Source of the DNA: a virus
DNA: 32,967 nt
Virus record (IMG/VR): IMGVR_UViG_3300002460_000112
Span: 1 to 32,967 of that record
Reading direction: 5' to 3' (one strand)
The first letter of the stretch is position 1, and every line of letters begins with the position of its first letter. The notes beneath the pieces were generated by a model that worked only from the letters and a program-made list of their open reading frames with translations, was not told the DNA's origin and searched no databases. Made by a program: the position numbers and the translations under genes. Below are positions 3,108 to 29,817 of this stretch, piece by piece.

Positions 3108-3437
3108 ATGAAAAAACTTATACCCTATGGTAAATTTTTAAAAGAATTTAATTTAACGCATAAAAATGATGTTTATCTCTTTGTTGGAAAGAACGCTTGG
3201 GATAAAGCAAGCAATTTCCAAATTAGTCGTCCTGGTACTTTATGCTTACCACCTAATGATTCCCCTTTTCATTATGATTGGCCTATCAAAGATTGTGATA
3301 TTTTAATTTTTGATACTTCGGTTTCCTCCCTTCAATACATTGAAGATATTGTCTATTGTTTATTTAATCATCAAGCGAATATAGTTCGATATAGTTCGCT
3401 TGAGGGAAAACTTACCGTTTATAAAAAGGATTTTTGA
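3108..3437 (+). CDS. hypothetical protein (109 aa) upstream of the replication helicase
   Basis: A 109-residue protein with no family I recognise. It alternates strands and helices (NDVYLFVGKNAWDKA, CDILIFDTSVSSLQYIEDIV, ANIVRYSSLEGKLTVYKKDF), suggesting a small compact alpha/beta fold. Pro-rich residues (RPGTLCLPPNDSPFHYDWP) lie in the middle. It ends one base before the helicase start, so the two are cotranscribed and may work together in replication. No Shine-Dalgarno precedes the ATG; instead an imperfect inverted repeat (AAAGCTT-type arms, about 3076-3103) ends a few bases before it, which could fold over or near the start. Confidence 0.7.
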   Translation: MKKLIPYGKFLKEFNLTHKNDVYLFVGKNAWDKASNFQISRPGTLCLPPNDSPFHYDWPIKDCDILIFDTSVSSLQYIEDIVYCLFNHQANIVRYSSLEGKLTVYKKDF

Positions 3438-3438
3438 A

Positions 3439-4584
3439 ATGAAAGACAAAACATATTCACAATTACACGCAGAAAGAAAGAATAATGATAATGTATCTTA
3501 TTTGAATTATGTAGATCTCGTTTGCATTGATGACATACAGCCTGAAAATCAACCGTGGTTATGGCCCAATGTTATACCTCTTGATGCTTTCACTCTTTTT
3601 GCAGGTGTAGGCGGCCTTGGAAAATCTCAACTTCTAATGTTTATTGTAGCACATATTAGTAATGGAAAATCGTTTCAAGCAGGAGGTGTTACTCATCAGT
3701 TACCTGAAGGTGCAGTTATTATTTTATCCTCAGAAGATAGCCAAAAATATGCTATTTCTCCCCGTTTAAGAGCATTAAATGCAGATACCACAAAGATTCA
3801 TAAAATAAAATCTGTTAGCGATGAAAGAGAACCCTTTAAAAAAAGATTAATGGCGCTTGACCAAGATTTAAAATTATTAAAAAAAACAATTACAGATTTA
3901 AAAGAAAATAAAAATCAAACAGTAAAATTAATTATAATCGATCCTATTATTAACTTCATTGGAAAGGTAAAAGATTATATTAATACCGAAGTAAGCAATT
4001 TCCTTTATAGTCTTACAGAATTAGCGGAAGAATTTAATTTATCAATTATTCTAAATAAACATTTAAGAAAAAAGGATAGTTCTGGGATCAGTTCTGCTAT
4101 TGATGAAATAGCGGGTTCTCATGCATGGGTTAATACAGCTCGTCAAGTTTGGTTGTTGTGCTGTCATCCAGATGATAAAAATAAAATACTTTTTATGGAT
4201 GGAAAAAGTAACATTAAAGAGAAAATAACGGGACTTGCCTTCAATATAAAATCAGTTGAAATTTTAAACAAAAATAATGAAATAATCAAAACATCTCGAA
4301 TAGAATGGTTAGATGAAATAATAACTATTTCAATCGATGAAGCTATAAATAAAGAAGTCTATGAAAAATCTAAAATTCAGACAACAATTGATCAAATTCA
4401 CCAACATCTAACAAAACATGGACAATCTCTGCTTGCTCATATTAAGTCAAAATTGATTAAAAAAGGGGTCTCAGAGGCCACTTTTCGACGTGCTTTATGC
4501 GAATTTGAGCAGGCACAACGATCAAATTTGAAGATTACACGGGGCATCAAAGGCGCAAAAACATACATGCTCATCGAAGATTAA
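3439..4584 (+). CDS. RepA-like hexameric replicative helicase (AAA_25) with C-terminal winged helix
   Basis: A 381-residue RecA-fold ATPase of the AAA_25/RepA type, expected to unwind DNA at the phage origin. Walker A is GVGGLGKS at residues 56-63. Next come AVIILSSED (near 92-100), then Walker B LIIIDP with Asp168, then the sensor-type segment LSIILNKHLRKK and GSHAWVNTARQVWLL, as in the plasmid RSF1010 RepA family. The last 65 residues (QIHQHLTKHGQSLLAHIKSK to GAKTYMLI) look like a winged helix for DNA binding. The start at 3439 follows the stop of the previous gene by one base and has AGGA 9 bases upstream; an in-frame start at 3400 overlaps that gene. The iteron cluster begins 20 bases downstream. 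Confidence 0.8.
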   Translation: MKDKTYSQLHAERKNNDNVSYLNYVDLVCIDDIQPENQPWLWPNVIPLDAFTLFAGVGGLGKSQLLMFIVAHISNGKSFQAGGVTHQLPEGAVIILSSEDSQKYAISPRLRALNADTTKIHKIKSVSDEREPFKKRLMALDQDLKLLKKTITDLKENKNQTVKLIIIDPIINFIGKVKDYINTEVSNFLYSLTELAEEFNLSIILNKHLRKKDSSGISSAIDEIAGSHAWVNTARQVWLLCCHPDDKNKILFMDGKSNIKEKITGLAFNIKSVEILNKNNEIIKTSRIEWLDEIITISIDEAINKEVYEKSKIQTTIDQIHQHLTKHGQSLLAHIKSKLIKKGVSEATFRRALCEFEQAQRSNLKITRGIKGAKTYMLIED

Positions 4585-4603
4585 CCTCTCTATAAGGGGG
4601 GAG

Positions 4604-4820
4604 TGAGCAATGAGCAATCTGAAATTACCGTATTATAACTAATTGTATCTATTGAGTTTTGTGTCTGCTCATCTGCCTGCTCATCTGCCTGCTCATTTGA
4701 GCATTCTACCCATTTCAGATTGCTCATTTGAGCACCCAAATGAGCACCCAATGAGCAGACAGCAAGTATATGATATATATATATATATTATTATTATTAT
4801 TGTAGATTGCTCATTGCTCA
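4604..4820. other. candidate replication origin: TGAGCA/TGCTCA iteron cluster
   Basis: Twelve copies of TGAGCA or its complement TGCTCA occur in 217 bases, where chance predicts almost none. Forward copies start at 4604, 4611, 4698, 4729, 4741 and 4752; reverse copies at 4666, 4678, 4690, 4721, 4808 and 4815. The copies at 4666, 4678 and 4690 are spaced 12 bp. Two pairs form the palindrome TGCTCATTTGAGCA. The outer boundaries, 4604-4620 and 4804-4820, are a perfect 17-bp inverted repeat, and 4611-4625 pairs perfectly with 4712-4726. An AT-only tract lies inside the right edge. Iterons plus an AT-rich melting region beside a helicase gene is the standard layout of theta-type origins. The 63-codon open frame across it is an artefact of the repeats. 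Confidence 0.75.
4773..4801. other. AT-only tract, candidate DNA unwinding element
   Basis: Twenty-nine consecutive A/T bases, an alternating AT run followed by TTA triplets, sit between the last forward iteron and the terminal reverse iterons. Such tracts melt easily and are where origin helicases load. Confidence 0.6.
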
Positions 4821-4897
4821 TTTGTCTGCTATAGGGAATAAATTTAAAATATTGAATCATAGAGTGGCGCCAATGGCGTCAAAGAGGAGTAACAAAA

Positions 4898-5092
4898 ATG
4901 AAAATACAATGGGATCCAATTATCACAGACAGTAGTGAACAAACATCTCGTTTAAAAGTGCCAGGAGGATGGCTTATAAAAGAAATAACATATAAATTTA
5001 CAGAGGATAATATAAATATTATAACAACATCTTGTTCAATCTGTTTCTTACCTGATGAAAATCATTCGTGGTTGAAAGATCTTGATATGTAA
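4898..5092 (+). CDS. hypothetical protein (64 aa)
   Basis: A 64-residue protein containing RLKVPGGWLIKEITY, a pattern I associate with small phage proteins of unknown function that carry an VPGGWL core. The rest is beta-rich (NINIITTSCSICFLPDEN). A clear AGAGGAG site lies 8 bases before the ATG, and a TGGCGCCA palindrome lies 30 bases upstream of the start. The gene lies between the iteron cluster and a structured 3' region ending in a strong terminator. Function unknown. Confidence 0.65.
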   Translation: MKIQWDPIITDSSEQTSRLKVPGGWLIKEITYKFTEDNINIITTSCSICFLPDENHSWLKDLDM

Positions 5093-7088: not shown

Positions 7089-7397
7089 TTAAATCCAATG
7101 TTGAATTTTAGCTATTAAGGTAACAATTCCTATTGCGCTGCCACCTATCATTCCTAACAAAAATATAAAATATTTATCTATTTTTTTGTCTAAATGTCTA
7201 AAATTATCATCTATTTTTTTATCCATTTCGCTGAATTTTTTGTCAATCGAGTCAAATCTTTTGTCAATAGAATCAAATCTCTTGTCAATAGAATCAAATC
7301 TTTTATCCATTCTTAACATCGTTTCATTGATATGCAGGATAGCTTGTTCAAGTAATGCTAATCTCGTATTTTCATGAACATGTTTTTGCGACTTCAT
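7089..7397 (-). CDS. heptad-repeat coiled-coil protein with C-terminal membrane anchor
   Basis: A 102-residue protein made almost wholly of a coiled coil with tandem 7-residue repeats (DKRFDSI three times, then DKKFSEM, DKKIDDN) from about residue 31 to 73, followed by one membrane span (IFLLGMIGGSAIGIVTLIAK). The style recalls DUF1640, hemolysin XhlA-like and Borrelia Bdr proteins; sequence pattern alone cannot choose among them. It is the first gene of a reversed two-gene cassette with an RHH regulator. The repeats are also near-identical at DNA level, so their number can change by slippage without a frameshift. Confidence 0.7.
   Translation of the reverse strand: MKSQKHVHENTRLALLEQAILHINETMLRMDKRFDSIDKRFDSIDKRFDSIDKKFSEMDKKIDDNFRHLDKKIDKYFIFLLGMIGGSAIGIVTLIAKIQHWI
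7238..7300 (-). repeat. three 21-bp tandem repeats encoding DKRFDSI
   Basis: Copies at 7238-7258, 7259-7279 and 7280-7300 share the core TTGTCAAT-GA-TCAAATC; the last two differ at one base. Each encodes one heptad of the coiled coil. Confidence 0.9.
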
Positions 7398-27389: not shown

Positions 27390-29219
27390 ATGGCTACTAA
27401 TAATGCAATAAATACAGGTTCAATGACAGATGGTCAACTTATCATTGGATCAACTGGAACAATTCCAACAATTGCTGCATTAACGGGGACTGCAAATCAA
27501 ACAGTAGTAACAAATGCAGCGGGTAGTATTACATTAAGTCTTCCTCAATCTATTGCTACTTCATCTGGTGTGACATTTGATAATGCATCATTAACAGGTG
27601 GATTTCCATTAAAAATAGGACCATCTACTGTAGGTGTTTCAAAAACATCACGATTAACAATTGTTGAATATGATGGTGTGAATGCTTGCGCTATGTTAGT
27701 TAGTGTAATGAATACTACAACTAATACTTTAACTTGGGGTGGCGGAACAGGATCAAGAACAGCAGCGACTAGTCATTTATTTAATGCAGCAGCAACAAAC
27801 GGAGTATTTACAGGAACTACTATTTATACTATTAATATTAATGGTTGTACTTTAAATAGTGGCAATCTAACTCTTTCACCATTAACTGCAAGTAGACCAT
27901 TGAAATTAGATGGATCTAAAAATGTTACTGCAACTCAAATTGATTTAGCTAGTACAAACGATATTACGGGTGTTGTTGCATTAGCGAATGGTGGAACAAA
28001 CAAAGCATTAACTGCATCAAATGGCGGTATTATATATTCCGATACTGATTCTTTTGAGGTATTAGCAGGAACCGCAACTGCAGGGCAAATTTTGCGATCT
28101 GGCTCATCAGCAGCTCCTTCTTGGTCAACAGCAACTTATCCTGCAACTACTACTATTAATGAAATACTTTTTTCTTCTGCTGCTAATACGGTAACTGGGT
28201 TAGCAGGCCCTGGAGGAAATTCAGTTTTAGTTTCAACTTCTGCTGGTGTACCAATTTGGTCAGCTGCAATGACAGATGGAAGACTCGTAATTGGAAACAG
28301 TGCAGGAACTCCAACTGCAGCAACTTTAACAGGAACTGCAAATCAAGTTACAGTAACAAATGGAGCAGGCAGTATAACTTTAAGTCTGCCTCAATCTATT
28401 GATACTGCTGCTACAGTAACATTTGGTACTGTTAAAGCAACGGATGGAGTTCCATTAGTAATAGGACCATCTACTGTAAATGTTGCTAAGACTTCAAGAT
28501 TTGGAATTGTTGAATATGATGGTGTAACAGTTGCAAGTATGTTAGTTAGTGTAATGGATGCCACTAATAATACTTTAAATTGGGGTGGTGGAAATGCTTT
28601 ACAAACAGCAGCGACTAGTCATAAATTTTATGCTGCTGCTGCTATTGGAACAACAACAGGTACATTAATTTCAACTACTGATACAACTGGAATAACATTA
28701 AACAGCGGAGATTTAAATTTATCACCATTAACCGCTTCAACATCTATATATTTAGATGCAAGTAAAAATGTAAAATCTTTAGCATTAACAAATGGTCAAT
28801 TACAAATTGGTAGTACTGGTGCTATTCCTGTTGCTGCAACTTTAACAGAAGGAAGTGGTATTTCTATTACAAATGGTGCTGGTTCCATTACGATTTCAGA
28901 AGTAGTTTCAACTGAAAATTCAATTACCGCTTTTGCAGGTGGTGGACAAGCAAGTGCTACTCAATTAACAGCAAGAACTTCTAGGATTACAGTAGTTGGA
29001 ACAGCAGGTGATTCAGTTAAATTGCCATCTAGTCCAGTAGTAGGATTATCTTATTATATTAGAAATGATGATGCAGCAGAAAGTTCAAATGTATTTCCAC
29101 AAAGTGGAGGATCAATAAATGCTCTTGGTGTAGATGCTGCATATGCATTAGCAGCTGGAACATCAGTGATTATGATTCCATTTTCATCAACAGTATGGTA
29201 CTCATTTAGCGTTTCATAA
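27390..29219 (+). CDS. repetitive fibre protein C (609 aa)
   Basis: A 609-residue fibre-type protein starting MATNNAINTGSMTDGQLIIG. It contains an internal duplication: the unit around IGPSTVGVSKTSRLTIVEYD recurs about 280 residues later as IGPSTVNVAKTSRFGIVEYD, each followed by SPLTAS. Between them is the GGTNKALTASNGG and ATAGQILRSGSSAAPSW block also found in fibre B. The tip domain (KLPSSPVVGLSYYIRNDDAA) is conserved in other phage fibres. AAAGGA lies upstream of the ATG, 12 bases after fibre B. Confidence 0.65.
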   Translation: MATNNAINTGSMTDGQLIIGSTGTIPTIAALTGTANQTVVTNAAGSITLSLPQSIATSSGVTFDNASLTGGFPLKIGPSTVGVSKTSRLTIVEYDGVNACAMLVSVMNTTTNTLTWGGGTGSRTAATSHLFNAAATNGVFTGTTIYTININGCTLNSGNLTLSPLTASRPLKLDGSKNVTATQIDLASTNDITGVVALANGGTNKALTASNGGIIYSDTDSFEVLAGTATAGQILRSGSSAAPSWSTATYPATTTINEILFSSAANTVTGLAGPGGNSVLVSTSAGVPIWSAAMTDGRLVIGNSAGTPTAATLTGTANQVTVTNGAGSITLSLPQSIDTAATVTFGTVKATDGVPLVIGPSTVNVAKTSRFGIVEYDGVTVASMLVSVMDATNNTLNWGGGNALQTAATSHKFYAAAAIGTTTGTLISTTDTTGITLNSGDLNLSPLTASTSIYLDASKNVKSLALTNGQLQIGSTGAIPVAATLTEGSGISITNGAGSITISEVVSTENSITAFAGGGQASATQLTARTSRITVVGTAGDSVKLPSSPVVGLSYYIRNDDAAESSNVFPQSGGSINALGVDAAYALAAGTSVIMIPFSSTVWYSFSVS

Positions 29220-29226
29220 GTAGAAT

Positions 29227-29817
29227 ATGGCTACTAATAATTCAATAAATACAGGATCAATGACAGATGGACAACTTATTATTGGATCAACTGGAACAAT
29301 TCCAACAATTGCTGCATTAACGGGGACTGCAAATCAAACAGTAGTAACAAATGGTGCCGGTTCTATTACATTAAGTTTACCTCAAAATATAGCAACTACT
29401 TCCACTCCTACTTTTATTGGTGTAAATACTGCAAATGCAAAATTTGTTGGTAGTTCTACAATATTAACTACAAGTTCATGGACAGATATTGTATTTACAA
29501 GTGTTAGTGCTACAGGTATTACTACTGCAAGTGATAAATCTTTTACTGTAGATTCTAATGGTACATATAGAGTAAGTTTTTTTGCAGCTTCAACTTCAAC
29601 AACTTATTACTTAACATTACAAATTGGAACAGCAGCAAATACAAATGTTATTGGTGAATGTCAATCCGGGAATGATTCATCAGTTAGTCCAGCAGCAAGT
29701 GGGAGTATTGATGTTAGTTTAGTAACTACAAATACTTATACTCTAAGAGGATGGCAAGCAAGTGGGAGTGACAAAACAATTTCAAGAGCTATGATGAGTA
29801 TAACAAGAATAAGTTGA
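29227..29817 (+). CDS. short fibre protein D with jelly-roll-like tip (196 aa)
   Basis: A 196-residue protein whose first 60 residues nearly copy fibre C (MATNNSINTGSMTDGQLIIG), including 73 identical bases. After a short linker, the C-terminal 130 residues (SSWTDIVFTSVSATGITTAS, GTYRVSFFAAST, TNTYTLRGWQASGSDKTISR) resemble the C1q/TNF-like jelly roll at phage fibre ends. It may be a second receptor-binding tip, a truncated fibre, or a duplication relic. No good Shine-Dalgarno is visible; translation may be coupled to fibre C, whose stop is 7 bases upstream. Confidence 0.6.
   Translation: MATNNSINTGSMTDGQLIIGSTGTIPTIAALTGTANQTVVTNGAGSITLSLPQNIATTSTPTFIGVNTANAKFVGSSTILTTSSWTDIVFTSVSATGITTASDKSFTVDSNGTYRVSFFAASTSTTYYLTLQIGTAANTNVIGECQSGNDSSVSPAASGSIDVSLVTTNTYTLRGWQASGSDKTISRAMMSITRIS

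Follow-up and report, generated by a model that had tools for sequence, protein, structure and literature searches.

Origins of the P4 alpha and SV40/papilloma type combine a helicase-initiator with short sites in both orientations and an AT-rich region, and in RSF1010 the iterons are bound by RepC and not by the helicase. Helicases of the AAA_25 family are common in phages. The family was listed without known function in a 2022 paper (PMC8965321). The arrangement of a helicase-initiator with a downstream origin is established for SaPI Rep, with binding support for Cch2; in both, the C-terminal domain of the protein binds iterons that immediately follow the gene encoding it, and the same source describes the SaPI arrangement as two hexamers and draws the comparison with T-antigen and E1 (PMC7581432). 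In pRN1 the origin, a stem-loop, begins 54 bp behind the primase-helicase gene, the product of which carries a C-terminal winged helix (PMC4234260).

Here we analysed a stretch of viral DNA of 32,967 nucleotides (IMGVR_UViG_3300002460_000112; hereafter the window), in which a cluster of TGAGCA hexamers directly follows a helicase gene. Judged from sequence comparison, this segment is probably the replication origin of the phage, with the helicase encoded just upstream acting as its own self-loading initiator. The features of the region are as follows.

3108..3437, plus strand: 109-aa ORF upstream of the helicase gene, named in the preliminary description as an alternative binder of the hexamers
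3439..4584, plus strand: RecA-fold hexameric-type helicase of 381 aa, AAA_25 (PF13481) with a weak DnaB_C match in Pfam
4585..4603, no strand: imperfect hairpin CCTCTC-TATAA-GGGGGG between the helicase stop codon and the first hexamer, present in the predicted fold
4604..4820, no strand: putative origin with a nested stem-loop; its 12 TGAGCA hexamers are divided equally between the strands (6 each) and arranged symmetrically about 4712 as six mirror pairs
4604..4616, plus strand: outer left hexamer pair, copies at 4604 and 4611, mirrored by 4808 and 4815
4666..4757, both strands: inner block of eight hexamers at 4666-, 4678-, 4690-, 4698+, 4721-, 4729+, 4741+ and 4752+
4773..4801, no strand: A/T-only tract of 29 bp separating the inner block from the right outer pair, candidate DNA-unwinding element
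4808..4820, minus strand: outer right hexamer pair, copies at 4808 and 4815

Exact counting gave 12 copies of TGAGCA/TGCTCA in the 217 bp of 4604-4820, where about 0.13 are expected; the whole window holds 24 (19.06 expected from shuffles), and no hexamer of any sequence occurs twelve times in any of the 321 other 300-bp segments of the contig. The helicase stop codon (4582-4584) lies 19 bp before the first copy. Three extra copies, at 4434, 4506 and 4568, are located within the helicase gene, at its 3' end, making a total of 15 in about 390 bp. The preliminary description had reported the twelve copies, together with a boundary inverted repeat of 17 bp (4604-4620 against 4804-4820), three copies at 12-bp spacing (4666, 4678 and 4690) and the A/T-only tract, all of which were recovered; its inner inverted repeat of 15 bp is absent as described, and a perfect 17-bp repeat (4609-4625 / 4712-4728) was found inside the array instead. 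Spacings within the inner block are mostly 8, 11-12 or 23 bp, and the A/T-only tract is the longest A/T run of the contig. A 63-aa ORF at 4643-4834 consists of translated repeats (SAHLPAHLPAHLS) and is almost certainly no gene.

The array is mirror-symmetric: its twelve copies pair off as 4604/4815, 4611/4808, 4666/4752, 4678/4741, 4690/4729 and 4698/4721 around one centre near 4712, a symmetry that was matched by 0/5000 random placements of twelve sites. When only the orientations were shuffled on the fixed positions, 338/5000 matched it, so that much of the mirror signal resides in the hexamer positions. No other 217-bp stretch of the contig is as self-complementary as this segment (53% without gaps, vs 47% for the second best and a mean of 27% after shuffling), and its predicted fold is one nested stem-loop (z -7.4 as ssDNA).

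The gene content of the contig includes a P22-type portal and coat, a terminase, a Sak4-like protein and a VRR nuclease. Elsewhere in the window, a small coiled-coil ORF with KRFDSID repeats lies on the minus strand at 7089-7397, and two adjacent ORFs of the presumed tail-fibre region (27390-29817) both begin with the repeated protein module MATNNxINTGSMTDGQLIIGSTGTIPTIAALTG. A terminase scan yielded 49 loci, about ten of which span the helicase/array interval. In most of the syntenic relatives, the AAA_25 helicase of this slot is replaced by initiators of the lambda-O/DnaD/HTH_36 type with HTH domains; locus L038 combines an HTH_36 protein with a DnaB-like helicase, and L010 carries four 24-bp iteron-like repeats (4739-4829) within its HTH_36 initiator gene, as in lambda. 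About 1 kb interrupts the terminase large subunit match of L038 (11008-12020), perhaps owing to an intron or an inserted gene. In L034 the slot holds another AAA_25 helicase, distinct from that of the window, with an array of GGAATC-type repeats behind it. Since initiator-like proteins of the relatives and the helicase with array of L034 occupy the same interval, the slot represents a replication module, in agreement with the earlier proposal of an origin-type module beside a RepA-like helicase. The comparison supports the view that helicase and array are gained or lost together, apparently as one exchangeable cassette.

The hexamers are absent from the relatives, an outcome proposed as a refutation of the origin, but they are absent only along with the helicase itself, and therefore their absence does not refute it. 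GC skew shows a minimum near 2.5-3 kb; this minimum coincides with a gene-orientation switch and thus gives no independent support for an origin. The sign changes of the skew, at about 2800 and 29850, coincide with switches of gene direction.

Viral contigs were scanned with a hairpin pattern that had been derived from the window and from L034, and many of the matches were found to sit between inverted short-repeat clusters, the repeat word of which varies from phage to phage. The hairpin at 4585-4603 resembles the C-tract/AT/G-tract hairpins of other arrays, and its L034 counterpart is the perfect CTCTCTCTATAGAGAGAG; the window hairpin needs T-G pairs and failed the strict hairpin scan. Further scans with a perfect palindrome, with a control palindrome and in bacterial genomes provided more sites. 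Most of the repeat-positive sites follow a large ORF at a distance of 46-480 bp, and the ORF preceding the palindrome-plus-inverted-repeat sites, which were found by DNA pattern alone, was AAA_25 in 12/12 annotated cases, with varying N-terminal domains. The palindrome CCCTCTATAGAGGG was rejected as a specific marker: the control CCCTGTATACAGGG recovers the class too (14/44 vs 3/23, p = 0.14), and the palindrome core is therefore not diagnostic. Some of the genome hits (the WOR-3 contigs L162, L174 and L182, as well as L180) appear to be repeats of other types and were left out of the count. Several copies of CCCCTCTATAGAGGGG per bacterial contig or assembly were noted in L147, L148, L149, L155 and L163 (OTbin.15, WOR-3, Chlorobiota), representing dispersed repeats of another kind.

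Because the palindrome sites had been chosen for their repeats, we performed the converse test with 27 AAA_25-type genes, of which 26 had been selected for protein similarity and one, that of L034, for synteny. A strong short-repeat cluster was located within 300 bp after the stop codon in 7/27 AAA_25 genes vs 4/472 other segments from these loci (p = 2e-7), or in 6/26 without L034. The strong clusters include the following.

Rhizobium phage 16-3: CGTGAC x11
Roseobacter phage CRP-822: GTATAA x10
Klebsiella phage IME279: GGTAAC x6
Salicola phage CGphi29: GGGACA x6
Vibrio phage 1.076.O: CGGACA x6

Escherichia coli phage sortregn carries a weaker GGTAAC set flanking a perfect hairpin. Hairpins of the C-tract/AT/G-tract form occur at 0.60 per kb downstream of AAA_25 genes vs 0.027 elsewhere, about 20-fold (n = 5 and 5). 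The remaining 20/27 genes, mainly of mycobacteriophage, Gordonia (actinobacterial) and Salmonella phage types, are without a strong downstream cluster. The helicase-then-array layout is thus recurrent, not universal, and the recurrence of differing clusters directly downstream of AAA_25 genes in many phages further strengthens the proposal of an origin-type module. The alternating orientation had been pointed out as unlike ordinary plasmid iterons, correctly so; yet mixed orientation is usual behind those AAA_25 genes that have an array. In none of the other loci tested (L198, L199, L205, L206, L208, L216 and L217) are all copies strictly mirror-symmetric, and this symmetry was dropped as a trait of the class. 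Alignment A1 was too divergent for a scan of the collection. Below the threshold, GGCAA repeats in both orientations surround A/T-rich DNA at 3470-3560 of L058, immediately behind an AAA ATPase gene on a Campylobacter coli plasmid with a TnpW-type neighbour. In the literature searched, which covered papers outside subscription, no paper describing repeat arrays behind AAA_25 helicase genes was found.

The helicase of the window belongs to AAA_25 with high significance (Pfam, 6e-23; 81.8 bits vs the curated cut-off of 27), its Walker A residues G56 and K62 are conserved, and the AF2 model shows a mostly confident, RecA-like core at residues 40-276, for which Foldseek matched RadA/Rad51/DMC1 and RSF1010 RepA (1olo), in accord with the RepA-like assignment made beforehand. 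Pfam detected only AAA_25 and the weak DnaB_C in this protein, with no Prim-Pol, SF3, DUF927 or D5/Primase_Cterm domain, and neither the helicase nor the 109-aa ORF gave an O-like initiator match. No close relatives of the helicase or of the array were found, only distant proteins of at most about 30% identity; identity to the comparison set is only about 15-18%. We propose the C-terminal region of about 80 aa as the DNA-binding domain, a region modelled at low confidence (pLDDT 45-70; helices followed by a beta-hairpin in the single-sequence model, pLDDT 55).

The alternative that survives best, though we regard it as unlikely, is that a separate iteron-binding protein such as the 109-aa ORF loads the helicase, in the manner of RepC for RSF1010 RepA, the segment still being the origin. 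Replication of RSF1010 in vitro needs RepA, RepB and RepC, according to the title of a work cited in PMC8965321, and the 109-aa orphan ORF adjoins the helicase gene; this ORF, however, matched nothing in Pfam, PHROG or NCBIfam, and L034 is without a tblastn-detectable counterpart. The pairs of related helicases bear on the same question. In L084/L206, with differing arrays, the last 90 residues share 24% identity vs 58% for the core, while in L205/L216, with the same repeat, tail and core are both kept (60% and 53%); in L076/L146 the tail has diverged despite the same repeat. This pair evidence is mixed, and co-variation of the helicase tail with the repeat word is suggested. The helicase C-terminus is the likeliest binder of the hexamers, and nothing points to the 109-aa ORF.

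Still less probable is that the hexamers form an operator cluster, at which a phage repressor or nucleoid-type protein would control the downstream genes. The array is intergenic, precedes a small ORF at 4898 and contains several promoter-like matches, and a nearby small ORF (o2629), conserved in relatives, resembles ribbon-helix-helix regulators by eye. The promoter-like matches are, however, at the level of chance (19 found vs 20.4 expected), and a regulatory region leaves unexplained why arrays of unrelated sequence occur specifically behind AAA_25 genes. We consider it improbable that a structured RNA, regulatory or priming, is encoded downstream of the helicase gene: the RNA fold is strong (z -8.6), but inverted repeats produce a stem-loop automatically, so that the fold is no separate evidence of RNA function; Rfam and tRNA scans found nothing, and other arrays contain many copies in the same orientation. 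An inserted palindrome, such as a miniature inverted-repeat transposable element, would fit the 217-bp length and the perfect 17-bp terminal inverted repeats but is very improbable, given that no flanking duplication was seen, that the array is single-copy in the contig and without DNA match in 50,697 phage records, and that the TGAGCA word has eight further internal copies.

For the origin reading, the following order of events can be proposed. The C-terminal domain of the AAA_25 helicase would recognize TGAGCA, and the six mirror pairs about 4712 would, as their symmetry and number suggest, seat two opposed hexamers with six protomers on each half. The resulting strain might melt the A/T tract at 4773-4801, extrude the stem-loop, or both, thereby exposing single strands; the rings would then part, and host or phage primase together with host polymerase would begin bidirectional synthesis. 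As for generality, we give an even chance to a widespread class of origins, in which AAA_25 helicases of the RecA fold, either on their own or with a fused Prim-Pol, PriCT, Toprim or DnaB-N domain, would act as self-loading initiators, and the stop codon would be followed by an origin with iterons of mixed orientation on either side of a C-tract/AT/G-tract hairpin. The helicase tail and the iteron word would change in concert, and the twelve-site dyad of this window would seat two hexamers. If the array is the origin, a simple rule would be available for locating origins and reading initiator specificity in many uncultured phages, and the design of a helicase gene followed by its own origin would extend to a helicase fold other than the established one. 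Cultured examples, Escherichia phage sortregn (K-12) and Rhizobium phage 16-3, make this reading testable.

Among known systems, iteron theta-plasmid origins share the AT-rich part with this locus and differ in their direct repeats, the window having six copies per strand in mirror symmetry. The exchangeable phage initiator plus iterons of lambda O/ori is comparable, as O-like/HTH initiators fill the slot in relatives, but the lambda initiator is no helicase and its iterons lie inside the initiator gene. The helicase resembles RSF1010 RepA in its RecA fold, hexameric type and structural match; RSF1010 differs in using RepA, RepB and RepC for replication in vitro. P4 alpha and the SV40/papilloma origins differ from the window in helicase superfamily and site sequence. 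The long stem-loop downstream of a replication gene is shared with pRN1, which in contrast is archaeal, has an SF3 helicase and is without iterons. In SaPI Rep and SCCmec Cch2, too, the helicase gene is immediately followed by short iterons; these proteins are DUF927 or D5/Primase_Cterm helicases, unlike the RecA-fold AAA_25/RepA-type helicase of the window, and the hairpin and strict dyad are not described for SaPI/Cch2 in the passages of PMC7581432 that were consulted. The proposed function, that of an origin, is thus an ordinary one in an unusual form, and the locus is a pointer to a recurrent layout.
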